From Desulfobacterales bacterium (GTDB lineage: Bacteria; Desulfobacterota; Desulfobacteria; Desulfobacterales; JALSRD01), in NCBI GenBank assembly GCA_026984935.1, contig JALSRD010000002.1, forward strand, positions 31,099 through 95,098: 64,000 bases of DNA, written 5' to 3'. The translations under genes and the position numbers were made by a program. The notes below the pieces were generated by a model. That model had not been told where the DNA came from. It made no database searches and worked only from the letters and a program-made list of their open reading frames with translations. Below, in pieces: positions 24,600-44,319 of the stretch (positions are counted from its first letter, which is position 1; the number at the start of each line of letters is the position of its first letter).

Positions 24600-27086
<2,487 letters not shown>

Positions 27087-28205
27087 TTATATTCGCATGG
27101 GCATCACGACGCTCAGGTAGCTCTTGTCCTGCGCGCCCTGAATGTAGCAGGGTTTTTCGTTGTTCTTGATGCTGACAATCACCTGGTCATCTTCAATGAC
27201 ATTGAGTGAATCGATAAAAAAGCGTGGGTTGAAGGCTGCTTCCACGGGATCACCCGTAAAACCGATAGGCATGTCCTCCTTGGATTCGCCAATTTCCGGA
27301 TTCGTGGAGTTGATCAGCAGAACATCATCTTTAAAATTAAATATCACACACTTATAGCTATCCGTGGAGAGAATGGACATGCGTTTCAACATCATCAAAA
27401 ACAAATTTCGATCCATAACGATTTCGGTATAGCCGGATTGATCGACAATCTCGCTGTAGTCCGGAAATTCTCCTTCCAGCAGGCGAATCACTAAAGTTTC
27501 CTTTTCCTTTTTCACCACCAGGTGATTGTCCATGAACCCCATCTGCACGAACTCGTCGCCTTCCAGAAATTTTCCGACTTCAACCAACTCCTTTTTGGAA
27601 ATCAGCACCCCTTTTTCAAAGGGAACCTGCATTTCTTCTTTGAGTGCATAATCGACTTTGGACAAACGGCTGCCGTCTGTTGAAACCATTCGGATATAGT
27701 GTTTGTCGCCTTGTCGCAGGCATTCGAAAAAAACACCGATAACGTGGGCCCGTTTATCATCGCCGGCACCGGTGATAACCACGGACCGTTCAATCATTTT
27801 CTTAAGTGCGGAAGACTTCATTTCAAAAAAGGGAATATCCTGGATTTCCGGGTTGCCGGGAAAATCTTCCGGATTCATACCGACAATATGATAGAGCACT
27901 TTTTCGTTGCCGATCTCGATCCAGTGATTTTCAAGCTCATTGATTCGGATTTCTTCACTGGGAAAATCTCTTACAATTTCAAAAAGTTTCTTGGCATTAA
28001 TCACCACCATACCTTCGGAGCGCACTTTTGCGGTAAAATGTCCCTCATACCCGGTTTCAAGATCGGTTGCCGCCAGTACGACGCCGGTATCGCTGGTTTT
28101 CATCAGCAGGGACGATGTAATGGCCAGGCTGCTCTTTCTGCCGGTCAACCCCTGTATCTTGGACAATACATCCAAAAAATCGCTTCGTTTGATGGCAATG
28201 TTCAT
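27087..28205 (-). CDS. dnaN: DNA polymerase III beta subunit (sliding clamp)
   Basis: A 372-residue ring-forming clamp that tethers replicative polymerase. It starts MNIAIKRSDFLDVLSKIQGLTGRKSS (in part) and ends with the clamp-loader and polymerase-binding groove region and YLSVVMPMRI. GAGG lies five bases before the ATG at 28205; an adjacent GTG at 28208 is too close to it. It is upstream of gyrB in the same direction. No dnaA is present in the window, and I see no cluster of DnaA boxes in the region upstream. Confidence 0.96.
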   Translation of the reverse strand: MNIAIKRSDFLDVLSKIQGLTGRKSSLAITSSLLMKTSDTGVVLAATDLETGYEGHFTAKVRSEGMVVINAKKLFEIVRDFPSEEIRINELENHWIEIGNEKVLYHIVGMNPEDFPGNPEIQDIPFFEMKSSALKKMIERSVVITGAGDDKRAHVIGVFFECLRQGDKHYIRMVSTDGSRLSKVDYALKEEMQVPFEKGVLISKKELVEVGKFLEGDEFVQMGFMDNHLVVKKEKETLVIRLLEGEFPDYSEIVDQSGYTEIVMDRNLFLMMLKRMSILSTDSYKCVIFNFKDDVLLINSTNPEIGESKEDMPIGFTGDPVEAAFNPRFFIDSLNVIEDDQVIVSIKNNEKPCYIQGAQDKSYLSVVMPMRI

Positions 28206-28245
28206 CACAACCTCTTTTTTCTTTTTTTATTTAAAAACAAGGGAG

Positions 28246-28423: not shown

Positions 28424-28942
28424 TCAACGGTCCATCCAGCGACTGATCTGCGGGCGTGTTTTGGTTTCCCAGGCATCCGACAGGCGCTCTTTGACGAAGA
28501 CTTGAAAAAGCGTTTCGATTTTTGCAATGATTTGCTCGCAAAGATAAATCCGGTTCAAGGCGGCGCCCTCGAGATCTTCTTTGGTTTCAACGAGCTCGGT
28601 TTCCGGAAAACTGAGGTTGGATATGGCCAGGCTCTCGGCTTTGAGGGTAAAACGCCATTTCAGGTTTGCCTGGCTGTAAGTAAGGTTGGCCTCGGAAACC
28701 CCGGCGCCCTTGCGAAGGGCGATGAAGGCCTCTTCAAAGCCGGCGTCATCTCCCTTGATGGTGATGGTTTCCAGTCCCTCGCGGGATCGGTTTTCCAAAA
28801 CGATGCGGTTTCCCATCTGAAAGACGCCATCGTCCGGTGAATCCGTTTCGTGGTTCTGGGTGTCGATTCGATGCCAAAGCCATGTTAAAAATTCGTATCC
28901 CAAAAATTTATAGCGGTTATAGGCGACTGCCAGATCAAGCAT
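28424..28942 (-). CDS. RdgC C-terminal-half protein (split recombination-associated RdgC)
   Basis: A 172-residue protein whose segment around residues 75-110 (GAGVSEANLTYSQANLKWRF then LKAESLAISNLSFPE) resembles the C-terminal half of RdgC, where a lysine/threonine-rich strand precedes FVLTEKLQLKRLKFLD in E. coli. It begins within the last codons of the upstream gene (8-bp overlap), which encodes an N-terminal RdgC-like half. RdgC is a ring-shaped DNA-binding protein that restrains RecA. The match is by eye and modest, but the adjacency and order support it. Confidence 0.6.
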   Translation of the reverse strand: MLDLAVAYNRYKFLGYEFLTWLWHRIDTQNHETDSPDDGVFQMGNRIVLENRSREGLETITIKGDDAGFEEAFIALRKGAGVSEANLTYSQANLKWRFTLKAESLAISNLSFPETELVETKEDLEGAALNRIYLCEQIIAKIETLFQVFVKERLSDAWETKTRPQISRWMDR

Positions 28943-29561
28943 GCGACCCCTCCCGAAAAGAAACCGGCGAAAGTTGGAGCAGCCTGTCTTGCTCTGAATG
29001 ACTGAGTTCCGATGCCAGTACCGCCTGGGTATAGGGAAAGAGCCTGACCAGCGACAGGTTGAAGGACTTTAAAAACAGGGCTTCCAATTCTTCATTGGCC
29101 GATTTTAGGGTCGAAAAGAGCCAGAGGCGTTCCTTTTCATAGTCCCATATCAGATCGTAGATATTGGGGGTGGCCGGAATCTGGCGGCAAAGGTTCTGCA
29201 CGATCTGTTCTTTCAGCAGTTTTTTTTCGTTACTGGAAAGAAAACCGCGGCCGTTTTCACGTTTGCGTTTCTCGATTTCGAGACTGCAATGTTTGCGGAT
29301 GGTTTTGGCCGCAAGCGTTTTTTTGTCGATTCGAAGGGCAAACAGAAAATACGTACCGATCATAAAGGAAGATCCGCGGAAGTCGGGCTGAAAGGGCGTC
29401 TGCCAGGATGTCCAGCCGGCACTTTTTTCATCAGTCTGCTGATCAATTTCCATAATACAGTTTTTACGAAGGCCCGTGAAAACGGATTCCACCGCTGAAG
29501 ATTCAAATTTACCGTTTACTTTGTAGCGGCTGACCGATACGCTGGAAGACAGCAATCCCAT
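28935..29561 (-). CDS. rdgC: RdgC N-terminal-half protein (split recombination-associated RdgC)
   Basis: A 208-residue protein resembling the N-terminal two-thirds of RdgC. It has a leading beta-strand region (SSVSVSRYKVNG), a GWTSWQTPFQPDF segment like the RdgC GWVSP region, FALRIDKKTLAAKTIRKHCSLE (in part), and ELLKEQI-like helices followed by the YDLIWDYEKERLWLFST strand. Canonical RdgC is about 300 residues in one chain; here the chain stops and a second gene starts in another frame with an 8-bp overlap, implying translational coupling. It diverges from the EndoQ-UvrD gene. Confidence 0.72.
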   Translation of the reverse strand: MGLLSSSVSVSRYKVNGKFESSAVESVFTGLRKNCIMEIDQQTDEKSAGWTSWQTPFQPDFRGSSFMIGTYFLFALRIDKKTLAAKTIRKHCSLEIEKRKRENGRGFLSSNEKKLLKEQIVQNLCRQIPATPNIYDLIWDYEKERLWLFSTLKSANEELEALFLKSFNLSLVRLFPYTQAVLASELSHSEQDRLLQLSPVSFREGSHA

Positions 29562-29673: not shown

Positions 29674-32600
29674 ATGAAATTTATCGCGGATCTGCATGTG
29701 CATTCAAAGTTTTCCAGGGCGACTTCCAAAACCCTGGATCTCGCAAGCATCTTTGTGGCGGCGCGCCTGAAGGGAATTGGCGTCGTCGCCACCGGTGATT
29801 TTACGCATCCGGCCTGGTTTGCGGAAATTAACGCCAAACTGGTTGCGGCCGAACCCGGCTTCTTTCGGCTGGAAGATGAACTTTGGGCAGCCTGTGAAGA
29901 AAAAATACCGCCGGGAATCCATGGAGAGGTCCGGTTCGTGCTGGTTGCGGAAATCAGCAACATCTATAAAAAAGATGGCCGGGTGCGCAAGAATCACAAC
30001 CTGGTTTTCATGCCGGACCTGGAAAGCTGTGCGCGTTTTAATCAAAAACTTGAAAAAATCGGTAACATCCAATCGGACGGCCGGCCCATCCTGGGCCTGG
30101 ATGCGCGCAACCTGCTCGAAATCGTAATGGAAGTTTCCGAAGATGCTTTTCTGATACCCGCCCACATCTGGACCCCCTGGTTTTCGGTGCTGGGGTCCAA
30201 ATCCGGTTTCGAGTCGCTGCAGGCGTGTTTCGAAGACCTGACCAAATACATTTTTGCCGTCGAAACCGGGCTTTCTTCGGATCCGGGAATGAACTGGCAG
30301 GTATCCGAACTGGACCGCATGACCCTGGTTTCAAATTCCGACGCCCATTCCGCCGACAAACTGGGGCGCGAAGCCAATTGGTTCGACACCGATTATAACT
30401 ACTTCGGCATCCGCAGGGCCCTGGAATTTCCGGAGAGAAAGGAATTGCTGGGAACATTTGAATTCTACGCCCAGGAGGGAAAGTATCATTTTGACGGTCA
30501 CCGCAAATGCGGCGTGAGTCTCAGCCCGGCGGAAACCCGATCTCTCGACGGAAAATGCCCGGAATGCGGAAAACCGCTGACCCTGGGAGTCCTGAATCGC
30601 GTTATGCAGCTGGCGGACCGCCGGCCTGGTTTCGAGCCACCCGATGCACGCCCCTATTTCAGTATCTTGCCGCTGCGCGAAGTCCTGTCGCAGATCCTGC
30701 GCGTGGGGCCCAATTCCAAGAAAGTTGCGCGATACTACCGTCGGGCGCTGGAAAAATTCGGCAGCGAGTTTGACATCCTGCACCACATAAAGCCTCAGCA
30801 CCTGAACAGTACGGAAATACCGCTTTTGGGAAAAGCCATCGAAAAAATGCGCCGCGGCCGGATCAAGATACTTCCCGGGTTTGACGGGCAATTCGGCAAA
30901 CTCCAGCTCTTTGACGACCAGGAACGCGAACAGCTGCTGGGCCAGGCCAGCCTTTTTGCGGTTCCGCCGGCGTTGGAACATACGCTTAGCAGCCGGACGG
31001 TCCCGGTCGCGGCCACCGCCGGCACAATGGCGCCGGAAAAGCGCAGAAGCATATCGCAAGCTCCCGGACATCAGCGCAAAGCGGAAATTGGCCGGGATTT
31101 AAACGCGGCCCAGCGCCAGGCAGTTTTATGCGTCCGCGAACCGCTGCTGATCGTGGCCGGTCCGGGTACGGGAAAAACCCGCACCCTGACACACAAGGCC
31201 GCCTACCTGATGGTCGACAAAAAAATCGCCGCGGAGCAGATTCTGGCCCTGACCTTTACCAAACGGGCGGCGACGGAAATGCAGACCCGCCTGGAAAGGC
31301 TCGCCGGAGCGCGCTGCAGATCTGCAACGGTAACCACTTTTCACGGCCTCTGCCGGCAGCTTCTGGCGGGTTCCGGGAGCTATCTGCTCGACGCGCTGGC
31401 GCAGCGCAACTGGGTCAGAGAAGCGCTGGCGATGGTCAAAAAGAGAAGCGAAAAATTATCCTCGCGTGATTTGGAGCGGGCACTGTCCACTATCGCTTCG
31501 GCCAAACAGCAGCTGTTGTCGCCGGCGCGGTTTTTTGAAAAAAGAGGGCGCCTCCAGGCGGCAGATGCACAGCATAAAGTCTATGCCGCCTATCAGCGGC
31601 TGTTGGACAGCCAGAATATCGTGGACTATGAGGATCTGATTTTTAATGTGGTGCATGATCTGGAAGAGAATGCCGTTTTGCGCAAGACACTCCGGCAGCG
31701 GTTTCGATATATCCTTGTCGATGAATACCAGGACATCAATTACGCGCAGTACCGCCTGATTCGGCTGCTGGGTGCAACTGCCGAACAGGTGTGCGCCATT
31801 GGAGACCCGAATCAGTCCATCTATGGCTTCAGGGGGTCGAATCCGCAGTATTTCCTCAATTTCATGCAGGATTATCCCAACGCCAGGCTGGTTGTGCTTA
31901 ACAGAAATTATCGTTCCACGCGCACCATTTTGAGCGCAGCGGCACAGGTCATCAAGGGATACGAACTGGCTGTCGACACGGCATCGGATTTTCGGTCCAG
32001 ACAGGTAAAAGCCGTGGATTCCGGCATCCGGGGTTATCCGCAGGTGGATCTCATCGAAGCTTCCTCACCGCGGGCGGAAGCCGTTGCAGTGGGCAGGGTC
32101 ATTGAAAATATGGTCGGCGGCCTGTCGCTGCATTCCATTGACAGCGGCAAGGTCTCGCCTTACACCAAGTCCGCCAACAGGAGTTTTGCCGACTTTGCGG
32201 TGCTGTACCGCACGGCTGAGGACGGCAGGCTTTTTTCCGATGTTTTCCGCCGGGCGGGCATCCCGCACCAGGTATCTGCCCGTGAACATGCGCTGGACCG
32301 CGGAGGCGTGCGCGACCTGCTGGACCTGTTGAAGCTGGTTGAACGACAGGCCAGTCTGCTCGATTTTGAGAAAGTCGCCGGCCTGCATGTGAGCGGCCGG
32401 AGAATCAGCCGGCATTCCTGGCGATGCTTCAAGTCCTGGTGTTTTGATCGCAAATTGGATTTACAGGCAGCCGCCGCGCACCTGCAGCGTTTTCCGGTCC
32501 CCGGGTTAAGCACGGCCCAGCAGCGCGAATTGAACACGTTTGCAGCGGCCGTCGAGGACGTAAGGGCACAGATTAAAGACCTGCCCGTGGCCCGCAAACT

Positions 32601-33114
32601 GGTGCATTTGAGCCGTCATGATGACTTTCCGCACCTGAAAAGCGTCTTTGAATCCGACGAAGGTGCGTGCCGGGAATTGAAAAACCTGCTTGCGGAAGCC
32701 GGGCAAGCCGGATTCAAGGCCGATGCTTTTCTGGCCGATATTAGCTTAAGGACCGACGCGGACCTGCTTAAAGCCGGTGTTGAAAAGGTTGCCCTCATGA
32801 CCATGCACGCGGCCAAGGGCCTCGAATTTCCGGTGGTTTTTATTGCAGGCTGCAGCCAGGGAAATATTCCCTATATCCGCGAAAAAGATGAGGCCGACGT
32901 GGACGAGGAGCGTCGCCTGCTTTACGTGGCGATGACGCGCGCTAGGGAGAGGCTGTTTTTTACACGGGCGGAAAAACGGCGGGTTTACGGCCAATGGATC
33001 GGTTGCCGGATTTCACAATTTATTGAAAGCATCGATGGCAGATTGATAAAATACAGCCAATCAGGTGTCCAGAGGCCTGTCGGGCGAACGGGTGTGCAGC
33101 TGAAGCTTTTTTGA
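29674..33114 (+). CDS. Endonuclease Q-like PHP nuclease fused to UvrD/Rep superfamily 1 helicase
   Basis: An 1146-residue fusion. Residues 1-~420 match the PHP-domain endonuclease Q family: metal motif DLHVHSKFSRATSKTLD near residue 6, ATGDFTHPAWF, IPAHIWTPWFSVLGSKSGF, VSNSDAHS, and a zinc-finger-like C-G..CPECG at about 278-297. Residues ~470-1146 are a UvrD-type helicase: Walker A GPGTGKTRT near 495, DEYQD near 683, GFRGSNPQYF, MTMHAAKGLEFPVVF, and motif VI YVAMTRARERLFF near 1084. EndoQ nicks 5' of deaminated bases and abasic sites; the helicase could unwind from that nick. The start has only a weak ribosome-binding site. Confidence 0.9.
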   Translation: MKFIADLHVHSKFSRATSKTLDLASIFVAARLKGIGVVATGDFTHPAWFAEINAKLVAAEPGFFRLEDELWAACEEKIPPGIHGEVRFVLVAEISNIYKKDGRVRKNHNLVFMPDLESCARFNQKLEKIGNIQSDGRPILGLDARNLLEIVMEVSEDAFLIPAHIWTPWFSVLGSKSGFESLQACFEDLTKYIFAVETGLSSDPGMNWQVSELDRMTLVSNSDAHSADKLGREANWFDTDYNYFGIRRALEFPERKELLGTFEFYAQEGKYHFDGHRKCGVSLSPAETRSLDGKCPECGKPLTLGVLNRVMQLADRRPGFEPPDARPYFSILPLREVLSQILRVGPNSKKVARYYRRALEKFGSEFDILHHIKPQHLNSTEIPLLGKAIEKMRRGRIKILPGFDGQFGKLQLFDDQEREQLLGQASLFAVPPALEHTLSSRTVPVAATAGTMAPEKRRSISQAPGHQRKAEIGRDLNAAQRQAVLCVREPLLIVAGPGTGKTRTLTHKAAYLMVDKKIAAEQILALTFTKRAATEMQTRLERLAGARCRSATVTTFHGLCRQLLAGSGSYLLDALAQRNWVREALAMVKKRSEKLSSRDLERALSTIASAKQQLLSPARFFEKRGRLQAADAQHKVYAAYQRLLDSQNIVDYEDLIFNVVHDLEENAVLRKTLRQRFRYILVDEYQDINYAQYRLIRLLGATAEQVCAIGDPNQSIYGFRGSNPQYFLNFMQDYPNARLVVLNRNYRSTRTILSAAAQVIKGYELAVDTASDFRSRQVKAVDSGIRGYPQVDLIEASSPRAEAVAVGRVIENMVGGLSLHSIDSGKVSPYTKSANRSFADFAVLYRTAEDGRLFSDVFRRAGIPHQVSAREHALDRGGVRDLLDLLKLVERQASLLDFEKVAGLHVSGRRISRHSWRCFKSWCFDRKLDLQAAAAHLQRFPVPGLSTAQQRELNTFAAAVEDVRAQIKDLPVARKLVHLSRHDDFPHLKSVFESDEGACRELKNLLAEAGQAGFKADAFLADISLRTDADLLKAGVEKVALMTMHAAKGLEFPVVFIAGCSQGNIPYIREKDEADVDEERRLLYVAMTRARERLFFTRAEKRRVYGQWIGCRISQFIESIDGRLIKYSQSGVQRPVGRTGVQLKLF

Positions 33115-33126
33115 CCGGAAGAAACG

Positions 33127-33726
33127 ATGCGATTTTTTTCAATATACGGGCAACACGGCGTACGAATCCTGCTCTGGTGCGGCGCCTGGTTCGTGCTGAT
33201 GACCTGCCTGCCCGCCAAAGCCGATATTTATGTCTATCGTGACCGGCAGGGCGTGCTGCACTTTTCCAACGCACCGGCATCGGCGAAATATCAACTCTAC
33301 TTTAAGAACCGCCAGCGCTTTGCCGTGCGCCGTGGTACCCGCAGGTCTTTTCAGAGCGTCATCGCCGAGGCCGCCAGAAAGAACGGCGTTTCCGAGGCCC
33401 TGCTGAAGGCCGTCATTGAAGTCGAATCCGACTATGATCCCCAGGCCGTGTCGCGCAAGGGCGCCAAGGGGCTCATGCAGATCATGCCGCAGAACTTCGC
33501 CCGCTGTAATATCCACGATCCTTTCGATCCCCAGCAGAACATCATGGGGGGTTCCCGTTACCTCAAAAGCCTGATCGAGCACTTTGGCGGCGACCTGGGC
33601 AAGGCGCTGGCCGCTTATAATGCCGGCGTCGGAGCCGTCGAACGCAGCGAGGGTATTCCGCCCATCGCCGAAACGCGAAACTATGTTGCCAGGGTACTGA
33701 AGCTGTACCGCCACTACCGGCGCTAA
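33127..33726 (+). CDS. Lytic transglycosylase (SLT domain) with DUF4124-like N-terminus
   Basis: A 199-residue exported muramidase-like enzyme that cleaves peptidoglycan with formation of anhydromuramic acid. A signal peptide or anchor covers residues 1-32, followed by a short DUF4124-like strand region (DIYVYRDRQGVLHFSNAP). The SLT domain has the catalytic glutamate in AVIEVESDYDPQAVS near residue 100, then GAKGLMQIMP and LAAYNAGVGAVE. It begins 12 bp after the EndoQ-UvrD gene and overlaps the convergent glgB by 4 bp. Confidence 0.92.
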   Translation: MRFFSIYGQHGVRILLWCGAWFVLMTCLPAKADIYVYRDRQGVLHFSNAPASAKYQLYFKNRQRFAVRRGTRRSFQSVIAEAARKNGVSEALLKAVIEVESDYDPQAVSRKGAKGLMQIMPQNFARCNIHDPFDPQQNIMGGSRYLKSLIEHFGGDLGKALAAYNAGVGAVERSEGIPPIAETRNYVARVLKLYRHYRR

Positions 33727-35798
33727 TCCGGGCCGCTGCCCAGGTACTCCAGAACCTGCGCCGTGCGGCAGGGAAGGTAAAGGCTGAGAAAATTTCCTTC
33801 CGTGGAGCTGTCGTAAAGGGTGAAATGCTCCTGGGCCGGCGCAAGCCGGCCGAAACCGCCGTATTCCGGGCCATCGCTGTCGAAGCACAGACGGTATTTT
33901 CCGGCCGGCGCCGTGATGCGGTAATGTTCGAAGGAAGTTTGCGGGTGAAAGTTGAAAACAAAAATCAGCGCCGCGCGCGTAAAGGCGATGATTTTATGCG
34001 TTGAATGTTCCAGCAGCAGCTGTGGTGCGCCGTCTTCCAGAATTGCCGTCTTTCGGGCCAGGCGAAGCATGTCGCGGTCGAAGCGTCCCAGAAAGTGGTA
34101 GCGCAGGTTTTCGTCATCGGCCAGATGCCACTGGCGGCGGGCGTAGTGCAGCGACCAGTTGTTGCCGGCGCGTGGAAAGTCGATCCACTCGGGATGGCCG
34201 AATTCGTTTCCCATGAAATTGAGATACCCGTGGCCAGCGGTTGCCAGGGTGATCAAGCGGATCATCTTGTGCAGCGCCATGCCGCGGTCCACGGCCGGGC
34301 TTTGGCTGTCGACGTGCATGCGGTCGTACATGTCGGCCCCGACCATGCGGAAAATCAGTGTCTGGTCGCCGACCAGCGCCTGGTCGTGGCATTCGGCATA
34401 GCTGATGCTTTTCTCCCCGTGGCGGCGGTTGGTCAGTTCATGCCACAGATCCCCCATGTGCCAGTTTTCATCCGGCACGTCCTTGAGCAGTTTGATCCAG
34501 TAATCCGCGATGCCCATGGCAAAGCGGTAGTCGAAGCCATAGCCCCCTTTTTCCAGCGGTCTGGCCAGCCCGGGCATGCCGCTGATGTCCTCGGCAATGG
34601 TAATGCTTCGGGGGCGCAGCCGGTGGATCAGCCGGTTGGCCAGTGCCAGGTAGACCAGCGCGGATTCGTCGACCTGGCTGTTGAAATAATCCGCGTAGGA
34701 CGTAAAAGACCTGCCGAGGCCGTGGTGGGTGTAGAGCATGCTGGTGACACCGTCGAAACGAAAACCGTCCACATGAAACGCATCCACCCAGTAGCGGCAG
34801 TTGGACAGGAGAAAGTGAAGCACCTGGGGTTTGGCGTAATCGAAGCAGCGGGAGTTCCAGGCCACATGTTCCCCGCGTGCGCCTTCATGAAAATACTGGT
34901 AGGCGGTACCGTCGAAACGGCTCAGGCCTTCGACTTCGTTGCGCACGGCGTGGGAGTGAACCAGATCCATGATGACCACCAGACCGGCACCGTGGGCCGT
35001 ATCGATCAGATATTTAAGGTCCTCCGGCGTACCGAAGCGCGAGCTGGGTGCGAAGAAACTGGAGACCTGGTAGCCGAAGGATGCGTAGTAGGGGTGCTCC
35101 TGAATGGCCATCAACTGCAGGGCGTTGTAACCGGATCTGACGATGCGGGGAATGACTTGCGCTGCGAATTCGCGGTACGTGCCGACTTTTTCAGCATCCT
35201 GGGCCATGCCCACGTGGGCTTCGTATATGAATAGGGCATCGGGCGTTGGCTCGATTTCAGGAGATTGCCAACGATAAGGATTGCGCGGTTTCCAGACCTG
35301 GGCGTTGAAAATCAGCGTTTGCGGATCCTGGACCACCCGCCGGCAGTAGGCCGGCAGGCGGTCGCCGCTGCCGCCGCGCCAGGTGATGAAAAGCCGGTAA
35401 AGGTCGCCGTGGTGCAGCTGCTCGGGCGGCAGGCGGATTTCCCACACCCCATCGGTGTTGATGCGCGTCAGGCGGTAAGCGTCATCGGCGTGCCAACGGC
35501 TGAAATCGCCGATCAGGTATATGGCCGTGGCATTGGGGGCCCATTCGCGCAGCACCCAGGAACCGGACCGGAAATGAAGGCCGAAGTACTCGTGTCCGGC
35601 CGCAAAATGCTCCAGCGGTTTTTTGCCCAGCGTCAGTTTTTTTTGTGTCGCTTCGATGAGCGCGAGGCGTCTTTTCAGATGGGATTTGAACGGCGTTAGC
35701 GCCGGGTCGTCGGCCAGCGCGCTTTTCAGGCGCATGCTTACGGCGGCTATACCGCCTTCGGTGCGTGGGTGGCGGCTGTTTTCGGAGCTTTTATGCAT
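33723..35798 (-). CDS. glgB: 1,4-alpha-glucan branching enzyme, eukaryote-like type
   Basis: A 691-residue GH13 enzyme that makes alpha-1,6 branches in glycogen. A CBM48 domain (WVLREWAPNATAIYLIGDF) precedes the barrel. Catalytic motifs are VIMDLVHSHAVRN, VDGFRFDGVTSMLY (nucleophile Asp), ITIAEDISGMPG (acid Glu) and SYAECHDQALVGD (third Asp). The sequence resembles eukaryotic GBE1-type enzymes (DGVTSMLYTHHG, FMGNEFGHPEWIDFPR) more than the E. coli type. It is the last gene of the glycogen cluster, 42 bp after glgA. Confidence 0.94.
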   Translation of the reverse strand: MHKSSENSRHPRTEGGIAAVSMRLKSALADDPALTPFKSHLKRRLALIEATQKKLTLGKKPLEHFAAGHEYFGLHFRSGSWVLREWAPNATAIYLIGDFSRWHADDAYRLTRINTDGVWEIRLPPEQLHHGDLYRLFITWRGGSGDRLPAYCRRVVQDPQTLIFNAQVWKPRNPYRWQSPEIEPTPDALFIYEAHVGMAQDAEKVGTYREFAAQVIPRIVRSGYNALQLMAIQEHPYYASFGYQVSSFFAPSSRFGTPEDLKYLIDTAHGAGLVVIMDLVHSHAVRNEVEGLSRFDGTAYQYFHEGARGEHVAWNSRCFDYAKPQVLHFLLSNCRYWVDAFHVDGFRFDGVTSMLYTHHGLGRSFTSYADYFNSQVDESALVYLALANRLIHRLRPRSITIAEDISGMPGLARPLEKGGYGFDYRFAMGIADYWIKLLKDVPDENWHMGDLWHELTNRRHGEKSISYAECHDQALVGDQTLIFRMVGADMYDRMHVDSQSPAVDRGMALHKMIRLITLATAGHGYLNFMGNEFGHPEWIDFPRAGNNWSLHYARRQWHLADDENLRYHFLGRFDRDMLRLARKTAILEDGAPQLLLEHSTHKIIAFTRAALIFVFNFHPQTSFEHYRITAPAGKYRLCFDSDGPEYGGFGRLAPAQEHFTLYDSSTEGNFLSLYLPCRTAQVLEYLGSGPD

Positions 35799-35840
35799 GG
35801 TGGCCCCGGAAGGCGCGAGTGTTGGGCATACGGTGCCGGT

Positions 35841-37349
35841 TTATTGAATCAGGGGGCGTTTCAGCATCTTTTCATACAGTTCGATATAGTGGCGGGCGGT
35901 TACGTCATGATTGAAAGCGGCCAGGCTTTCCCTCATGATGCGCTGAACCTGCTTTTGCTTCACGGCCGACGGGCGGCCGAAAAAGGCCATGGCCTCGGAA
36001 ATCGCCCAGAACAGGCCCTGGGCGTCAAAAGTTTCGAACAAGAAACCATTGCCCGTGTCTTTTTCGACAGCCAGGTTGGATACGGTGTCGTGAATACCGC
36101 CGGTATCGTGGGCCACCGGCAGCGCGCCGTATATGGCGCCGATCATCTGCGGCAGGCCGCAGGGCTCGAAAAGCGAGGGCATCATCACGAAATCGGAAGC
36201 CGCGTAGGCCAGGTGCTCCAACCGTACGTCGAAGTCGCAGACGGCGACCCGCTGGTGAAAGCCGTGGAAGGCGACGATGTTCTTAAAGTACTCCTGATAC
36301 GGACCGTTGGCCACAAAGACGATCTGCAGGTTGCGGTCCCAGTAGGTCGAAATCACCTGGTAGAGAATGTCGGCCAGCAACTGGCACCCTTTTTGGACCG
36401 GATCCAGGCGGGAAGGCCAGAAAAACAGGGCTGCTTGGTCGTCTTGCGCCAGGCCCAGGCGTTTCTGCAGGTAGCGTTTATTTTCAACTTTTCCCGCCGC
36501 GTGGTCTTCGGGGCCGTAGGTCCGGACTATGTCTTTGTCTTTGGCCGGATTGAAAGACGGGTCCGGGGCATTCAGGATTCCGGAAGCGCAGCCGGCATGC
36601 CACTTGTTCGCAAGTTCCCGGTGCAGCGGCGCTTCGATGAAACTGTGGCGCTGGTCAACAATTTCTCTTAAAAAGGTCGGGCTGACGGTGTTGACGAAGT
36701 GGGCGGCGAAAACTCCGCTGACCAGAAAATCCACCGGGTTGTTTTCGCGGGTGCTTTCATAGTCGTAGGCCATGTTTTCGTAGTAGAGGTTCTGCCAGAA
36801 ATAGGCGGCGTCGATGCCGCGGTCCTCGATATGCGCCAGCGTGCTTTTCACGGTGTGGATGTTGTGGATGGTGAACAGGCAGGGGATCCCCAGTTTTCTG
36901 GACATGGCGGGAATCAGGCCGGTCATCCAGTCGTTGCAGTGAATCAGGTCGGGCTGGACGCGGGCCACGATGTTGTTGATCACCTCGCGCTGGAAAGCCA
37001 GCGCCAGTTTGGTGTTTTCGTTTCCGGAAGTGGCGTAAACCCGGTTGAGGTAAAAAAAGGCGCGGTCTTCGGCCAGGTGGATGCGGTCGTCGGGCATTTT
37101 GCGTTCGAAACGACTGAGTTCTTTTCGCAGGCGGGGTGCCAGCCGGTCGTGGAAGATGGCACGGTAGTTGGGCAGCGCCACATGCACATCGGCGCCCTGC
37201 TCGAAAAGCGCGCTGACCAGTGCGGCGGAAACGTCCGCCAGTCCTCCGGCCTTGGCCGTCAGGTAGTGCGAGAAACTGCCCATGCGGTCCGGAAGGTAGG
37301 TGACTTCCGGGGTGACCACCAGAATACGCGGATTTTTTTGGGTTTGCAT
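35841..37349 (-). CDS. glgA: Glycogen synthase
   Basis: A 502-residue GT5 glycosyltransferase. The nucleotide-sugar loop is KAGGLADVSAAL near residue 35, where bacterial ADP-glucose enzymes usually read KTGGLGDV. Later marks are HCNDWMTGLIPA, FTIHNIHTVKS, ending with the acceptor-site region MMPSLFEPCGLPQMIGAIYG. The ATG at 37349 has AGGTG seven bases upstream; the frame opens five codons earlier. The donor could be ADP- or UDP-glucose; no glgC is in the window, but a UDP-glucose pyrophosphorylase is. Confidence 0.92.
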   Translation of the reverse strand: MQTQKNPRILVVTPEVTYLPDRMGSFSHYLTAKAGGLADVSAALVSALFEQGADVHVALPNYRAIFHDRLAPRLRKELSRFERKMPDDRIHLAEDRAFFYLNRVYATSGNENTKLALAFQREVINNIVARVQPDLIHCNDWMTGLIPAMSRKLGIPCLFTIHNIHTVKSTLAHIEDRGIDAAYFWQNLYYENMAYDYESTRENNPVDFLVSGVFAAHFVNTVSPTFLREIVDQRHSFIEAPLHRELANKWHAGCASGILNAPDPSFNPAKDKDIVRTYGPEDHAAGKVENKRYLQKRLGLAQDDQAALFFWPSRLDPVQKGCQLLADILYQVISTYWDRNLQIVFVANGPYQEYFKNIVAFHGFHQRVAVCDFDVRLEHLAYAASDFVMMPSLFEPCGLPQMIGAIYGALPVAHDTGGIHDTVSNLAVEKDTGNGFLFETFDAQGLFWAISEAMAFFGRPSAVKQKQVQRIMRESLAAFNHDVTARHYIELYEKMLKRPLIQ

Positions 37350-37364
37350 GGCTTGGCACCTCAA

Positions 37365-39926
37365 TCAGGCGGCCGACGCCCAGGTGATGAGGCCGGGGAT
37401 GTTTTTCTGCCAGTCGTCCCCCTTGGGAATCGCGCGGGCGGAAAAGCCATAGCGGCCTGAGGCGTGGCAGTTCAATTCACTGCTGTAAAGATAATTTCCG
37501 TCACCTAAGTGTTTTTCAACGTTCATTTCCCTGGTCCGGCTGGACTGAACGGTTTCGGTGGCCGACATTTTGCCGTAGTAGATCTGAACACTGACCTCGT
37601 CGGGCCGCAGGGCACCCAGGTGAACGTCGGCGCTGACACGAAATGTATCGCCCACCCGAAAGGGGCCTTCGCTCTCAGCCCGGGGTGCATCGATGCGGAT
37701 GTGCCGCCAGTGTTCGAGCAGTCGTTTCCGCTGGGCAGCCAGTTCGCGCGCCAGTTCAGACTGGTTGGCGACCAGTTCGTCATGCCAGCGGGCGGCCGGA
37801 AAGTAAAACCGGTTTTCATATTCGTGAACCATACGCAGTCCGGAAAATTTTTTCATGGTCATTTGCATGGCGGCGCGCATCATGCGAATCCACTGCTTGG
37901 GTGAATCGCCGTTTTTGCGGTCGTAAAATGCGGGCAGAACGTCGTTTTCCAGCACGTTGTACAAGGCCTGCGCTTCCAGCGCATCCTGAAAGGCGGGGTC
38001 GTTGAACCCCTCCTCGCCGTCTGCAATGCGCCACCCCACCGATTCGCGGTACCCTTCCGCCCACCAGCCGTCCAGGATGCTGACGTTCAGCACGCCGTTG
38101 ATGGCGGCTTTCATACCCGAAGTGCCGCAGGCCTCGAAGGGGCGCCGTGGCGTGTTGAGCCAGACATCCGCCCCCTGGCACAGGCAGCGCGCCAGGTGCA
38201 TGTCGTAGTCTTCGAGAAAAATAACCTTGTCCCGCACACTGTCTTTCTGGGCAAACTGGAACAGACGCTGGATGATGCCCTTGCCCTCGTTGTCGCTGGG
38301 ATGGGCCTTGCCGGCAAAAATGATCTGAACGGGATAGCGCTTGGAATTCAGGATCGCCTCGAAACGCTCCTCGTCGTGTAAAAGCAGATAGGCGCGTTTG
38401 TAGGTGGCGAAGCGGCGTGCAAAGCCGATGGTCAGCACATCCGGATCGAGCACGCTGCGCGCCTCTTCCAGGATCGCCTTGGGCGCATTGCGGCGTCGGT
38501 ACTGCTTAACCAGCTGCTGGCGGCAGGTGCGCACCAGGCGTGCGCGGGCCGTTTCATGGGCGTGCCACAGCTCGTCGTCGTAGATGTCCTCAATGCGCCG
38601 GGTCTGTTTGGGGTTGTGCGGGCTGCGGTGCCACAGCGGCCCCAGGTAGCGCTCGAAGAGCAGTGCGATTTCCGGGGAAAGCCAGCTCGCCAGGTGTACC
38701 CCGTTGGTGATGTGGGAAATTGGCACCTCGTCGACGGGTTTTGCCGGCCATTCGTGGGCCCACATCTGCCGGGCCACGCGGCCGTGCAGCCGGCTGACGC
38801 CGTTGCAGTACTGGGACATGCGCTGGCCCAGGTAGAACATGGACAGTTTGCCGTCGGGAGCCGTTCCCTTGGCCTGGCCCCAGGACAGTATTTCCTGGGC
38901 TGAAGCACCGATGCGTTCTTCAAAAGGTTTGAGAACCGGTTTCACCAGGTCCGCCGCAAATTCGTCGTGCCCGGCGGCAACCGGTGTGTGGGTGGTGAAA
39001 ACGGTCGTGCGCGGAACGATTTCCAGGGCCGTCTTCAAATCCACGCCGTGGGTGGACATGGTGAGGGACAGCCGTTCCAGGCTGCTGAAGGCCGAGTGCC
39101 CTTCGTTCATGTGGCAAACCTTGGGGTACAGGTTCATGGCGGTCAGGGCGCGGATACCGCCGATACCCAGCACAAGTTCCTGGCAGAGGCGCTCTTTGGG
39201 ATCGGAAACGTACAGGTTGGAGGTGATGCCGCGGTATGCCGGCGGATTGTCGTGCAGATTGGTGTCCAGCAGAAAAAGCGCAACACGGCCCACCTGGATT
39301 TTCCAGACCGTAGCCAGAATGTCTCCATCGGGCCCGGGGACGGACAACACGACCTCCCTGCCGGCGTGGTCCCTGGCCCGCCTGGCGGGCAGGCTGTAGA
39401 GATCGGCGGCCGGATACTCCTCCTGCTGCTGTCCGTGGGCATCCAGCACCTGGCGAAAATACCCATGGCGGTACAAGAGACCCACACCGGTAATGGGCAG
39501 CGACAGGTCGGAGGCCGCTTTGAGGTGGTCGCCGGCCAGAATCCCCAATCCGCCGGCAAAGATGGGAATCGATTCGTGCAGGCCGAACTCCATGGAAAAA
39601 TAGGCGATGGTTTCGTTTTCGCCCAGCGGGACGTTTTTCTGCAGCGGGGGCACGGCAACGCCCTTTTCGAAGCGCTTTTTGATTTCCTGCATGTGGGCCA
39701 GAAAACTTTCATCGCCCGCAAGGTCTTCCATGCGGGCCTGGGGCAGGCGGGTGAGAAAGACCAGCGGGTTGCGGCCGCATTCGTCCCAGAGGCGCGGATC
39801 GATGCGCCGGAACAGCTCCACGGCACCGGATTTCCAGCTCCACCACAGGTTGCGGCCCAGCTCTTCGAGAAACGCCAGGGGTTCCGGAAGGTTGGGAAAT
39901 ACCTGAAAAGTAAACAGTTTATTCAT
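37365..39926 (-). CDS. glgP: Alpha-glucan (glycogen) phosphorylase
   Basis: An 853-residue GT35 enzyme that releases glucose-1-phosphate from glycogen ends. The N-terminal DUF3417-like region (PEPLAFLEELGRNLWWSWKSG in part) marks the bacterial/archaeal alpha-glucan phosphorylase subgroup. Then come NEGHSAF, THTPVAAGHDEF, and the PLP-binding segment FEACGTSGMKAAINGVLN near residue 605. AAAGGAATG precedes the ATG with eight-base spacing. It lies between the debranching gene (45 bp) and glgA (15 bp). Confidence 0.95.
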   Translation of the reverse strand: MNKLFTFQVFPNLPEPLAFLEELGRNLWWSWKSGAVELFRRIDPRLWDECGRNPLVFLTRLPQARMEDLAGDESFLAHMQEIKKRFEKGVAVPPLQKNVPLGENETIAYFSMEFGLHESIPIFAGGLGILAGDHLKAASDLSLPITGVGLLYRHGYFRQVLDAHGQQQEEYPAADLYSLPARRARDHAGREVVLSVPGPDGDILATVWKIQVGRVALFLLDTNLHDNPPAYRGITSNLYVSDPKERLCQELVLGIGGIRALTAMNLYPKVCHMNEGHSAFSSLERLSLTMSTHGVDLKTALEIVPRTTVFTTHTPVAAGHDEFAADLVKPVLKPFEERIGASAQEILSWGQAKGTAPDGKLSMFYLGQRMSQYCNGVSRLHGRVARQMWAHEWPAKPVDEVPISHITNGVHLASWLSPEIALLFERYLGPLWHRSPHNPKQTRRIEDIYDDELWHAHETARARLVRTCRQQLVKQYRRRNAPKAILEEARSVLDPDVLTIGFARRFATYKRAYLLLHDEERFEAILNSKRYPVQIIFAGKAHPSDNEGKGIIQRLFQFAQKDSVRDKVIFLEDYDMHLARCLCQGADVWLNTPRRPFEACGTSGMKAAINGVLNVSILDGWWAEGYRESVGWRIADGEEGFNDPAFQDALEAQALYNVLENDVLPAFYDRKNGDSPKQWIRMMRAAMQMTMKKFSGLRMVHEYENRFYFPAARWHDELVANQSELARELAAQRKRLLEHWRHIRIDAPRAESEGPFRVGDTFRVSADVHLGALRPDEVSVQIYYGKMSATETVQSSRTREMNVEKHLGDGNYLYSSELNCHASGRYGFSARAIPKGDDWQKNIPGLITWASAA

Positions 39927-39971
39927 TAAAACATTCCTTTGGAAGTGTTAAACCGGGATGAATTTGTATGT

Positions 39972-42900
39972 CTATCCGTTTTCTGCCAGCGCGAGCCAGA
40001 CGCGGATGAATTCACTCAACCCCCACGCCTGGGCGTCGCAGCCCCGCTGAACATGGGGGTAGTCGCCGTCCAGGATCTCCGGGATGTGGCCCACACAGCC
40101 ATCGCGGACCAGTTGCAGGCTGCTGCCCAGAAGCGCCCGTGCGGATGCCGCTGCTGTCCGGCCGTAGGCCGCCACCCATGCTTCGCAGAATGATGGAAAC
40201 AGCCACGTCCAGGCGGTGCCGTTGTGGTAGGCCGGTTTGCGGTCGGTATCCTCATCCCCGGCGTAGGTGCCCCGGTAAGGGTGATGGGGATCATTCAATA
40301 ACTTTCCCTTATGCCAGATTTCCAGTGCATGTGCAACGCTTTGGTCCGCCAGGCTGCGAATCGCACCCGGCACCAGCAGACGTTGGCAGGCATTGACGAT
40401 GCAACGCCGCATGGCGGTGCTTTTAACGGCGCCCAGGGTAACCGCCAGCAGTTGGTTGGGCCGCAGGGCGTCGTCGGCCACCGCGTCGGCGGCGGTGGTA
40501 TGGGGTTCGGCATGCAGGCAGTCGGAGAAATATCCCGCGCTCTTAAGGCAGAAGCGGCTGCTCACGGAACGCCGGACCGTTTCGGCCAGGCGCGACCACT
40601 TTTTGTGTTCGGCAGCGGCGGCGATTTTTTGCCGGAAACGCAGCGCTGCGTACCAGAGGGCCTGAATTTCAATGGGGTATCCCTGCCGCGGGGTTCCGGC
40701 CGGGTGGTTGGTGTCCATCCATGTGAAATGCACCGGGCTGAAAACCAGGCCGGATCCGGCATCCACCATAATCCCGTTGGGTGTGCCGTTGAGATAGCTG
40801 TCGATGATGGAGTTAAGCACCTGTTCGATCTTCCGGCCGCCGCAGTCGGCCTGCAGGAATGCGGGGCGCTTTTCACTACGGACGAGTTCGGCGCAGGCCA
40901 GCACGAACCACAGAGGGGCATCCGAGGTGTCGCGGTTGGCGGCGGTTTCTCCCTGGATCATGTTGGGCAGGGTGCCGTTTTCTTCGAAGCGGCCGAATTG
41001 CAGCAGGACCTTGCGGGCCAGTTCATGGCGTCCGGCGGCAATCAGCCCGCGCGTGAAAATCAGGGCATCGCGTCCCCAGTCCAGAAACCAGGGATAGCCG
41101 GCGATCACGCTTTTGGCGTCCCCGCGGTCGACGACATAGGCCTCCAGTAAATCGGCCAGCCAGCGTACCGGGCGGCGGTGATGCTGGCTGTCGGCCTCTT
41201 CCGGGGTATTCTGCGCGGCACCGCGTTGCGGCGACGGCCCGGGCTTTGAATCCATAGGGCGCACGCAGGCCGTCAATTCCTCGGGCGTGTCCCCCCGGAG
41301 CTCAAGTTCAAAATAGCCCGGGCTGAAGAGATCGGAGTCCGGATCCTGTCCGCGCTGGGCGTCCAGCCTCCGGTGCACCATGTAGCGCCACTCAGGTTCC
41401 GGGACGAAACTTCCAGAAGAAACCCGGACCTCGAGCCTCCGGTCGTCGGCGGGTTGGAAAACAAATCCCGCCGCATGCGCCGAGACGGTGGCCGGCCAGG
41501 CATGCTCGGGACCGGTATACGCTTTGGTCAGATCGTGAAAATTGCGGTCTTCGATGTCCGGCCGCAGGATGAGCGTCACCGGGATGCCGCTGCCGAGAAT
41601 GCCATTTTGCTCGCGGCCGGCAAGACGCCGGAAGGTCAGGCGGACTTCATTTTTAAAGGGGATCATGCGCAGGGAGATGGCCAGGTGCACATGCTGGCCC
41701 TGGCCGGTGGGCAGGTTGAAATGCCAGCTGCCGCCATGCGCATCGAAGCGAAAAGACGAAAGGCAACGGTTGTCAACCTGCGTTGAAAAGCCCTGAAAGC
41801 GCAGCCAGGCCCGGCAGCGCGTGAACATGATGCGGCGGTCGTCCGGGTAGTCCCTGTTCAGATTGGCGGCCAGCAGAGCGTCGTAACGGCTGTAAAGCCG
41901 GCCCCACGGCACGGCTGCGCGCAGCATGGCGCCCCGGCCGTTGGTCGACAGCAGGAGGTGCGGTTTCGCCAGCAGCTCGGCTCGCGGATAGAGGGTCCGG
42001 ATGACAGCGTGTTCGGCGGGGGGCAGATACAGCAACGGGGCTTCCAGATGCCGGCCGGCCGGCCGGGTGTAGAGGGAGAGCACAAGCTGCAGCACGCGCG
42101 GTTTGCGGGGTTCGGGCAGCGGGGAGAAGAGTGCGAAAAAAGTGCCGTCGCTGCGCGCAAGGCTCTTCTCACAGGCCAGCGTGGCCTTTTCCGATGCGAT
42201 GCGGGCGCGGAAGGGAAATGGGGCCGCCACCAGCAGGAAATGGCCGGGAGGCACCATCACCTGGCGGTTTTCGTCGGCCGGAAAATTCCACTGGGCCACA
42301 TGCGGTTCGTCACCTTGGGGGTTCATCCGGCTGCAAAAGGCCAGGGGGTCTTCGGCCAGGCGGGCGGCGGCGCGTTCCGGGTGCATGTCGCCGATATGGC
42401 GCGTTCCGTTAAAGGCGCAGAAGACATCGAGGGCCTTGGCCCGCAGCAACTGGTCGTGGATGCGTGCAGGCCGGGATGTGGTGCGGTCGTCGGTGTTTTG
42501 TATGATTTCCATGTCCCGGGACTCCGCAAGGCAGTACACCTGTCCGGGAGCCAGGTCCAGGTGAAAGCGATCGCCACGGCGTTCGGGATAGATCTTGCGG
42601 CCGCTCAACAGGTCCAGGAAAGGCGGTCGCCACGGATGCGTGTGTGCAGCCGACCAGGCACAGGGGTTGTTTCGGGAATCGTCCAGGTTGACGGCCACCA
42701 CGAGACGTTTTCCGGAAGGAAGGTGATGCCGCAGCAGCGCCAGACTGTTGCCGTCGCCTTCCCCGATGATCGATATTCGGCAGCCGTCGAAAAAGGCCGG
42801 GTGGGTTTTCAGCAGGTGATTGATGCGGCGGATGAAATCCACCTGGTTGTCCGGCGCACCCCAGTTCAGGGAGGGGGCGTCGTGCACATCGATCTTTTCG

Positions 42901-44270
42901 GTGGCATACCATTCGACACCGTTGGCGAAGCCGAAGGCGCCGTTCTGGGAGGCCAGGGCGCACAGGGCGGTGCGCATGCGCGCCCAGGTGGGCGAGCGGG
43001 CGGCCAGGCGGTTGTTGTCATGGGTTTCGGCGAAATGCACCATCAGCCCCTGGCCGGCGGCGATTTCCAGCGCCTCGGGAAGGTAGGCCGATATCTGGCG
43101 GCGGTCGTAGTTCTGAAAGAGTTCCGAGTAGGCCCAGTTCAAATTGGCGTTGTCCAGCAGGCGGCGGGTGACCGAGATTTTGCCACCCAGGCCTTCGAGA
43201 AAAAACAGGGTATCCGGATACTGCCGGCGCACTTTGGCCACAATGTACTCCCAGGCCGCCTCCGGGATCATGTAACCCGCATCGCAGCGGAAGCCGTCCA
43301 CGCCCCGGCGGCACCAGATGAGAAAAACGCCCGCCATGTAGCGCCACAGGTCCCGGTGCGAATAGTCCAGACGCGTGAGATCCTCCCAGCGGACACCCCA
43401 GGCGCCGGGGACTTCGATGCGCCCGTCGGGGTCGCGCACGAGCCATTCGGGATGGGTTTCGTGCAGCCGCGCCGCCCAGCCGGTGTGGTTGATGGCGATG
43501 TCGATGATGACCCTGGCGTCCCGGCTGTGGGCGGCGTCGACGAGCTCGATGAACTGCTCCAGCGGCGTTGCGCGCGGGTCGAATTCGGCCAGCGCCGAAT
43601 CCACCTCCGTAAAGCTGAGCGCGGCGAAGGGGCTGCCGAAACGCCCCATGCGCGCATACGTAGTCGGCGTCGGGAAGATGGGCAGAAGCTGCAGAATGCG
43701 GCAGCCCAGATAATCGATGATAAAATCGAGCTTTTCGATCAGGTTGCGAAAGGTGCCCGAAGGCGGAATCAGGGTGTACCCCTGTTTATCGAGCGTTTCG
43801 GTGGGCAGCCTTTCGAGCAGGTCGAAGCCCCCGCCGGATTGGTTGGGCCCGAACTGGCGCACAAAGGCGTTGTAAATCATGTTGGCACAGCAGGTGTCCG
43901 CCGGTTCGACATTGAGCGTTACATTTTCCCCGGGCGGCCAGGATGGATCGGGGCGGTTCTTTTCCAGAAAAAAAGCCTTGGCCTCGAAATGACCGGTTTC
44001 CACCAGCGGCAGGATGAGCTCGAAGTGCGTATCGGAAACACGCTGCATGGGGATGTCGAACCAGTCGCGGGCCAGGCGGGTTTCCTGATGGTCGATCTGG
44101 CGCGTGATTTCACGGCGTTGTATGGCGGCGCGGCCGAGGTTGGTGCGCAGCCAGGCGCCGCCCGGCACAGCGTCGGCCAGCCTGAGGGTGAAACGCTGGC
44201 AGTCGCCGCAAAACCGCAGGTGGCGGGTTCCGGGAGCCGGCGTCTGTATCAGTGGATGGGGTCGGGTCAT
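39972..44270 (-). CDS. Bifunctional-type glycogen debranching enzyme: GH13 amylase-like + GH133 amylo-1,6-glucosidase
   Basis: A 1432-residue protein combining two catalytic regions. The first half is a GH13 barrel with VIIDIAINHTGW, VDGFRCDAGYMIP (nucleophile), FFLEGLGG (acid) and HFAETHDNNR (third Asp). The C-terminal half is an amylo-alpha-1,6-glucosidase (GDE_C): DWGRDALIFTRGLIAAGRHE, NGTLPNMIQGETAANRDTSD, HNGTAWTWLFPSFCEAW. This order and size mirror eukaryotic AGL. The ATG at 44270 is chosen because residues further upstream are an out-of-frame reading of the neighbouring 173-aa gene; its ribosome-binding site is weak. It should remove limit-dextrin branches left by GlgP. Confidence 0.88.
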   Translation of the reverse strand: MTRPHPLIQTPAPGTRHLRFCGDCQRFTLRLADAVPGGAWLRTNLGRAAIQRREITRQIDHQETRLARDWFDIPMQRVSDTHFELILPLVETGHFEAKAFFLEKNRPDPSWPPGENVTLNVEPADTCCANMIYNAFVRQFGPNQSGGGFDLLERLPTETLDKQGYTLIPPSGTFRNLIEKLDFIIDYLGCRILQLLPIFPTPTTYARMGRFGSPFAALSFTEVDSALAEFDPRATPLEQFIELVDAAHSRDARVIIDIAINHTGWAARLHETHPEWLVRDPDGRIEVPGAWGVRWEDLTRLDYSHRDLWRYMAGVFLIWCRRGVDGFRCDAGYMIPEAAWEYIVAKVRRQYPDTLFFLEGLGGKISVTRRLLDNANLNWAYSELFQNYDRRQISAYLPEALEIAAGQGLMVHFAETHDNNRLAARSPTWARMRTALCALASQNGAFGFANGVEWYATEKIDVHDAPSLNWGAPDNQVDFIRRINHLLKTHPAFFDGCRISIIGEGDGNSLALLRHHLPSGKRLVVAVNLDDSRNNPCAWSAAHTHPWRPPFLDLLSGRKIYPERRGDRFHLDLAPGQVYCLAESRDMEIIQNTDDRTTSRPARIHDQLLRAKALDVFCAFNGTRHIGDMHPERAAARLAEDPLAFCSRMNPQGDEPHVAQWNFPADENRQVMVPPGHFLLVAAPFPFRARIASEKATLACEKSLARSDGTFFALFSPLPEPRKPRVLQLVLSLYTRPAGRHLEAPLLYLPPAEHAVIRTLYPRAELLAKPHLLLSTNGRGAMLRAAVPWGRLYSRYDALLAANLNRDYPDDRRIMFTRCRAWLRFQGFSTQVDNRCLSSFRFDAHGGSWHFNLPTGQGQHVHLAISLRMIPFKNEVRLTFRRLAGREQNGILGSGIPVTLILRPDIEDRNFHDLTKAYTGPEHAWPATVSAHAAGFVFQPADDRRLEVRVSSGSFVPEPEWRYMVHRRLDAQRGQDPDSDLFSPGYFELELRGDTPEELTACVRPMDSKPGPSPQRGAAQNTPEEADSQHHRRPVRWLADLLEAYVVDRGDAKSVIAGYPWFLDWGRDALIFTRGLIAAGRHELARKVLLQFGRFEENGTLPNMIQGETAANRDTSDAPLWFVLACAELVRSEKRPAFLQADCGGRKIEQVLNSIIDSYLNGTPNGIMVDAGSGLVFSPVHFTWMDTNHPAGTPRQGYPIEIQALWYAALRFRQKIAAAAEHKKWSRLAETVRRSVSSRFCLKSAGYFSDCLHAEPHTTAADAVADDALRPNQLLAVTLGAVKSTAMRRCIVNACQRLLVPGAIRSLADQSVAHALEIWHKGKLLNDPHHPYRGTYAGDEDTDRKPAYHNGTAWTWLFPSFCEAWVAAYGRTAAASARALLGSSLQLVRDGCVGHIPEILDGDYPHVQRGCDAQAWGLSEFIRVWLALAENG

Positions 44271-44319
44271 TTTAGGCAAGCGCTGCAGAAGATACGCAAA
44301 TTGTGATTGATTGAGTGTC

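Follow-up and report, generated by a model that had tools for sequence, protein, structure and literature searches.

A single 1146-amino acid (aa) chain that joins an endonuclease Q (EndoQ) domain to a UvrD-type helicase, and that ends in a pentapeptide of the beta-clamp-binding type, is encoded in a 64,000 nucleotide stretch of DNA from a Desulfobacterales bacterium (contig JALSRD010000002.1, positions 31,099–95,098; here termed the window). The initial annotation had read the gene as an EndoQ-UvrD fusion, and this reading is correct: the frame is intact and both halves have domain matches (Table 1). It is probable that this one chain, likely docked on the clamp, would cut DNA 5' of hypoxanthine, uracil or abasic sites and, ahead of the new 3'-OH, then unwind the strand bearing the lesion. 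The idea of a single enzyme for incision and strand displacement, put forward in the same annotation, is a prediction that fits these features.

Fusion gene and its two domains

There are 44 intact fused open reading frames (ORFs) among loci L002–L066 under a strict filter, with the locus of the window, L002, counted; L007 and L059 are apparently one locus counted twice. Most relatives have intact fused frames, and a frameshift does not separate the two domains in them. A frameshift or chimeric artefact is ruled out by these many intact frames. In the predicted structure the linker (residues 425–469) is modelled as disordered, as is the C-terminal tail (residues 1133–1146), which has predicted local distance difference test (pLDDT) values below 50. 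Both halves look active, as judged from the conservation of active-site residues in each.

A domain search gives EndoQ matches for the N-terminal part and UvrD/PcrA/Rep matches for the C-terminal part. Residues 5–414 match the EndoQ entries 5zb8 and 7k30 in a PDB sequence search, with E about 1e-50. An identity as another PHP family, such as PolX or histidinol phosphatase, is ruled out, as this search returned only three distinct sequences, all of which are EndoQ, and the structure match spans the entire EndoQ core; homology extends over its PHP, Zn-binding and C-terminal domains. The NCBIfam model TIGR00375 matches residues 5–409 with an E value of 1.5e-45 and 156.2 bits, under the curated cut-off of 326.6 bits, and the protein is not assigned to this equivalog. 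The cut-off is not taken as defining EndoQ, because one of the three control genomes that match TIGR00375 is also below it.

The PHP metal centre consists of H8, H10, E93, H108, H164, D223 and H225, the base-pocket residues are G199 and S201, and the putative zinc ribbon is H276-x2-C279...C295-x2-C298. In an alignment with Pyrococcus furiosus EndoQ (PfuEndoQ), the equivalents of E76, H84, H139, G169, S171, D193 and H195 are identical in 157 of 157 fused rows, which include the window's protein and are mostly close relatives picked by score. H8 and H10 are kept in 156 rows, the last row being gapped there. The catalytic ligands E76, H84 and H139 of PfuEndoQ are thus represented by E93, H108 and H164, and the base-selecting H139, G169 and S171 by H164, G199 and S201. 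In PfuEndoQ the substitutions E76A, H84A and H139A abolish cleavage, and normal bases are excluded by H139, G169 and S171 (PMC8307549, in excerpt). C279, C295 and C298 are invariant in 64 rows, and an invariant H276 takes the first zinc-ribbon position, in contrast to a four-cysteine CPxCG-type site.

The C-terminal part matches PF00580 and PF13361; the NCBIfam models of PcrA, Rep and UvrD cover residues ~475–1133, and there are also matches to PcrA, UvrD and Rep structures. The helicase motifs include Walker A AGPGTGKT (495–502), DEYQD (683–687), GDPNQSIYGFRG (710–721), motif V (~1042–1052) and R1089. Across 64 diverse fused proteins there is no variation at the key positions of Walker A, DExQD, motif III and the YR pair or at the arginine of motif VI. 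Motif residues and fold are those of a UvrD/PcrA-type helicase of superfamily 1A (SF1A). The scores for the pcrA, uvrD and rep equivalogs are 411.8, 319.2 and 348.4 bits, each under its curated cut-off; the fusion helicase belongs to the same group but to none of these equivalogs.

Clamp-type peptides

The sequence QxxLF is found within the last 25 residues of 58 of 66 closed fused frames. When the tails of the same 66 frames are shuffled, 0.7 carry it on average and 4 at most. The motif is absent from the final 25 and also from the final 120 residues of all 52 closed unfused UvrD/PcrA proteins, of which 19 come from the source genome and its relatives. Standalone EndoQs have a terminal QxxLF in 25 of 38 cases. 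In 64 rows, conservation is 90% or higher at Q1142, L1145 and F1146, and the remainder of the tail is variable. As for the eight fused frames that miss the motif, the frame stops before the homologous stretch ends in L032, L036, L044 and (by 18 bases) L064; there are near-forms in L052 (QLTLC), L055 (QMTLI) and L140 (QTHLSLF), and L057 is without a C-terminal motif.

The bacterial clamp-binding consensus is QL[S/D]LF, or more generally QxxLF (PMC12309361, in excerpt). In the fusion both peptides are in accessible segments, QLKLF in the tail of low pLDDT and QASLF at the edge of the disordered linker. Probable clamp clients from the same genome also carry the motif: QMGLF in DnaE, QQPLF in a second DnaE-type polymerase, and QLDLF in a 333-aa ORF beside the latter (L183, contig C64). 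This polymerase and ORF resemble an ImuB-DnaE2 mutagenesis cassette. The C-terminal QxxLF likely docks the protein on the beta clamp, and the predicted partner is the product of dnaN, which ends in MPMRI. That the QxxLF ends are coincidental, or bind a partner other than the clamp, is rather improbable; the motif is short, clamp binding is a prediction, and the motif is missing from 8 of 66 fused frames and from 13 of 38 standalone EndoQs, but none of the 52 unfused helicases carries it, its count in shuffled tails is low, and its three key positions are conserved in an otherwise variable tail.

The internal peptide has a different distribution. In the stretch aligned to residues 405–475, a broad interval, QxxLF is present in 147 of 157 rows of the Desulfobacterales-heavy set. 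In the broad set it is present in 35 of 66, a count in which the linkers of L025, L060 and L126 were mis-extracted and scored as misses. It is lineage-specific, and an internal clamp motif as a universal feature is ruled out.

Archaeal EndoQ binds PCNA via a C-terminal PCNA-interacting protein (PIP) box with a dissociation constant of 55 nM and is stimulated by PCNA, and clamp motifs in bacterial EndoQ homologs have already been remarked upon (PMC4858679, in excerpt). With a PCNA tether in archaea and clamp motifs in bacterial homologs, the tether seems to be older than the motor, which would have been placed between the EndoQ domain and the terminal tether. The initial annotation suggested a coupling to replication from the position of the gene beside dnaN and gyrB. 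The conserved beta-clamp-type C-terminus, which had been missed, supports this suggestion; the neighbourhood provides lesser support.

Distribution of the family

The fusion represents a widespread family and is not a single-genome oddity. At least 7,994 protein clusters match residues 1–440, all with E < 1e-3, among candidate proteins of 0.55–1.75 times the fusion length, and the best 120 of the 7,994 carry the PF00580 helicase domain. Database names among the matches listed are "UvrD-helicase domain-containing protein", "TIGR00375 family", PcrA-type helicase and hypothetical protein.

An EndoQ-containing match is present in 38 of 40 relatives, the source genome included, and in 35 of the 38 the frame is at least 880 aa. 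The three exceptions are a genome of the same genus, G001, in which the match is distributed over two contigs, and the genomes G024 and G027, whose EndoQ has no fused helicase. In the phylum, 132 of 198 genomes have an EndoQ domain: 52 fused-length, 76 standalone-length and 4 short pieces, where a frame length of at least 880 aa serves as a proxy for fusion and two of the 52 (G041 and G133) are interrupted by a stop within the matched region. According to the record titles of the loci, fused frames are found in Desulfobacterota, Myxococcota, Acidobacteriota (Holophagae), Gemmatimonadota, Bacillota, Spirochaetota and Alphaproteobacteria. The carriers are mostly metagenome-assembled genomes, but Chelativorans intermedius LMG 28482, Desulfonema magnum and Desulfosarcina widdelii are strains with names. 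The fusion is rare in the class to which the Chelativorans record (alphaproteobacterial L046) belongs, with 3 of 115 genomes positive when that of the record is counted, two fused-length and one a fragment.

History of the fusion

The EndoQ tree, with 104 rows, places all 65 fused rows in a single clade together with 7 standalone ones, at a Shimodaira-Hasegawa-like approximate likelihood ratio test (SH-aLRT) value of 99. The fused/standalone label changes 8 times on this tree vs a shuffled mean of 31, a pattern that fits a single fusion followed by about seven losses or splits. The trees are short searches with SH-aLRT support only, and the long outgroup branch of PfuEndoQ makes the root unsure. 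In the helicase tree, with labels as given, there are 2 changes for fused plus adjacent rows and 3 for fused rows alone; one row with the paralog label, L058_P, appears to be a fragment of a fused gene at the end of a contig.

For six of the seven standalone EndoQs inside the fused clade, no helicase frame was found within about 3 kb. The seventh, L062 (5977–8951), is split: its EndoQ and helicase frames overlap and both have QxxLF near their ends (QLTLF in the helicase). L121 represents a loss in place, with dnaN, the rdgC pair, a 446-aa EndoQ-only frame and then the downstream gene. Outside the fused EndoQ clade, L105 (4265–5965) has EndoQ followed directly by a separate helicase that ends in QMELFS; this pair may predate the fusion or have arisen independently.

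These losses bear on the view that the helicase has the main job, in clearing forks or transcription conflicts like PcrA and Rep, with the EndoQ domain an occasional accessory. PcrA and Rep are the top-scoring helicase models and a clamp tail suits fork work, but the EndoQ residues do not vary across the 157 fused rows, and the half that is lost within the fused clade is the helicase, a comparison that is biased since sampling sought EndoQ and EndoQ-less helicases are invisible to it. This view is quite unlikely.

Genomic neighbourhood

The gyrB and dnaN genes and two overlapping ORFs of the rdgC region are on the minus strand and the fusion is on the plus strand, as the initial annotation stated. 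Its description of a split rdgC holds in that there are two overlapping ORFs, but only the first has an RdgC match, and the split is not peculiar to this locus. All 19 loci inspected (L002 included, and L007 and L059 again apparently one locus) have the parts as separate ORFs, which rules out a broken gene; the region is therefore a conserved two-gene form of RdgC or includes a new partner gene, and is not a frameshift. The gyrB-dnaN-rdgC pair arrangement opposite the fusion, together with the downstream ORF, is complete in L022, L036, L059 and L065 (Desulfobacterales). Other loci have subsets of these neighbours, partly from short flanks. The neighbourhood is conserved in the order Desulfobacterales; function is not thereby indicated.

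Table 1. Coordinates of the fusion gene, its parts and its neighbours in the window
Feature	Positions	Strand	Basis or remark
EndoQ-UvrD fusion gene	29674..33114	+	ATG to stop, 1146 aa, no internal stops
EndoQ-type domain, residues 5–414	29686..30915	+	Sequence and structure matches, conserved residues
SF1A UvrD/PcrA-type helicase, residues ~476–1130	31099..33063	+	Profile and structure matches
Internal clamp-type pentapeptide QASLF, residues 424–428	30943..30957	+	Directly after EndoQ domain
C-terminal beta-clamp-binding-type pentapeptide QLKLF, residues 1142–1146	33097..33111	+	Motif, conservation
gyrB	24600..27044	-	Conserved neighbour
dnaN (beta clamp)	27087..28208	-	Predicted docking partner; ends MPMRI
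Second ORF of rdgC region, 172 aa, starts MLD	28424..28942	-	No Pfam/NCBIfam match; conserved neighbour
RdgC N-terminal-part ORF	28935..29561	-	RdgC match; conserved neighbour
ORF 13 bases past fusion stop	33127..33726	+	Lytic transglycosylase-like by reading the sequence; conserved neighbour

An antiviral nuclease-helicase directed against phages with uracil or hypoxanthine DNA is very unlikely. An antiviral role has been suggested for Bacillus EndoQ in a review (PMC8307549, in excerpt), but the conserved place beside gyrB, dnaN and rdgC in several Desulfobacterales loci and the presence of EndoQ in two thirds of the phylum genomes (132 of 198) are housekeeping-like and unlike a defence island.

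The downstream ORF reads as a periplasmic lytic transglycosylase, for which a repair role is not obvious. Positions 33723–44510 (minus strand), adjacent to the repair and replication genes, are occupied by a glycogen/alpha-glucan run, labelled from translations as a branching enzyme, glycogen synthase, phosphorylase and a very large amylase-type ORF. L029 and L036 likewise have the branching enzyme and glycogen synthase close to the fusion.

Other enzymes for deaminated bases

The source genome has two matches to the uracil-DNA glycosylase (UDG) family, and Xth. EndoQ as a UDG replacement is ruled out, as PF03167 is present in 38 of 40 genomes, the source genome included (G001, of the same genus, is without a match). 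EndoQ as the sole apurinic/apyrimidinic (AP) endonuclease is ruled out by Xth in the source genome. Xth is over the cut-off in 28 of 40 genomes and Nfo in 20 of 40; the Nfo-like match of the source genome is below it. Neither EndoV nor PF02245 has a match in the source genome. Given these presences and absences, hypoxanthine may be the lesion where the fusion matters most; other hypoxanthine glycosylases, e.g., AlkA, were not searched.

Proposed mechanism

In the proposed pathway the C-terminal peptide, together with the second peptide after the EndoQ domain in Desulfobacterales, would bind the clamp, which would recruit the protein to newly made DNA and let it share the site with a polymerase. 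As the conserved residues suggest, the EndoQ domain would then flip the deaminated base and nick 5' of it, to leave a 3'-OH and a 5'-phosphate; PfuEndoQ is known to cut in this way. Judged by the polarity of its family and by geometry, the helicase would run 3'-5' on the uncut strand, a direction that leads away from the 3'-OH, and would displace the lesion-bearing 5' end. A clamp-bound polymerase would extend the 3'-OH, and a flap nuclease and ligase would finish the repair.

A wider proposal is offered tentatively. The protein could be a glycosylase-independent, clamp-docked excision machine that locates deaminated bases behind the fork, nicks, unwinds the damaged strand and passes the 3' end to the clamp-bound polymerase. 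In Desulfobacterales the two peptides, one per half, could fill both pockets of one beta ring. It would represent a bacterial counterpart of archaeal EndoQ-PCNA repair, with the motor added once and found in seven phyla.

Several observations weigh against incision and unwinding by a clamp-docked chain. The activity is a prediction from sequence and modelled structure. The EndoQ half scores below the TIGR00375 cut-off, and uracil and AP sites have other enzymes in the source genome. The helicase is dispensable in the seven standalone EndoQs inside the fused clade. As to docking, the terminal motif is missing from 13 standalone EndoQs and the internal one from much of the broad set, and a pentapeptide match is no proof of binding, the QMGLF peptide of B. 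subtilis DnaE binding at about 78 uM (PMC12309361, in excerpt).

The same parts could also serve mismatch repair, as a strand-marking nickase and helicase in which EndoQ nicks at uracil in the new strand and the UvrD half unwinds toward the mismatch, in a MutH/UvrD-like manner. The helicase family is that of the UvrD of mismatch repair, and clamp docking would steer the protein to new DNA. But the genome has an unfused UvrD-type paralog (L162) that could serve mismatch repair, and this role is unlikely.

Comparison with known systems

EndoQ, UvrD and clamp motifs are each known, and database entries for the fused chain have generic names. The open-licence literature gave no description of the fusion, but it may be drawn in the domain figure of a 2015 paper with Desulfovibrio homologs. 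The question addressed is how bacteria complete endonuclease-initiated repair of deaminated bases; incision on the 5' side does not itself remove the lesion. A nuclease, a motor and a clamp tether in one conserved chain offer a direct, testable answer. They would connect bacterial EndoQ with the replication clamp, as is the case for the archaeal enzyme, and provide a predicted function for a large, generically named family.

The alkyltransferase-EndoV protein FacAGT-EndoV also combines a deaminated-base endonuclease with a second repair domain, but its nuclease is of another family and a motor is absent (PMC4357722, in excerpt). Unfused UvrD, PcrA and Rep differ from the fusion in that none of the 52 ends in QxxLF. 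Many of them end in a longer C-terminal region, presumably the RNA polymerase-binding domain of PcrA, which the fusion does not have. Bacterial standalone EndoQ (B. pumilus, B. subtilis and many Desulfobacterota) shares the EndoQ domain and, in the 25 of 38 frames noted above, the QxxLF C-terminus; the helicase is absent from the chain. EndoQ of P. furiosus and Thermococcus kodakarensis (5zb8, 7k30) is like the fusion in predicted fold, metal centre, base-pocket residues and zinc ribbon position. The archaeal proteins are about 400–424 aa and have no helicase, and the fusion differs from them in H276 at the first zinc-ribbon position. They likewise have a C-terminal clamp tether, a PIP box for PCNA, which in the fusion is represented by QxxLF at the end of the helicase.
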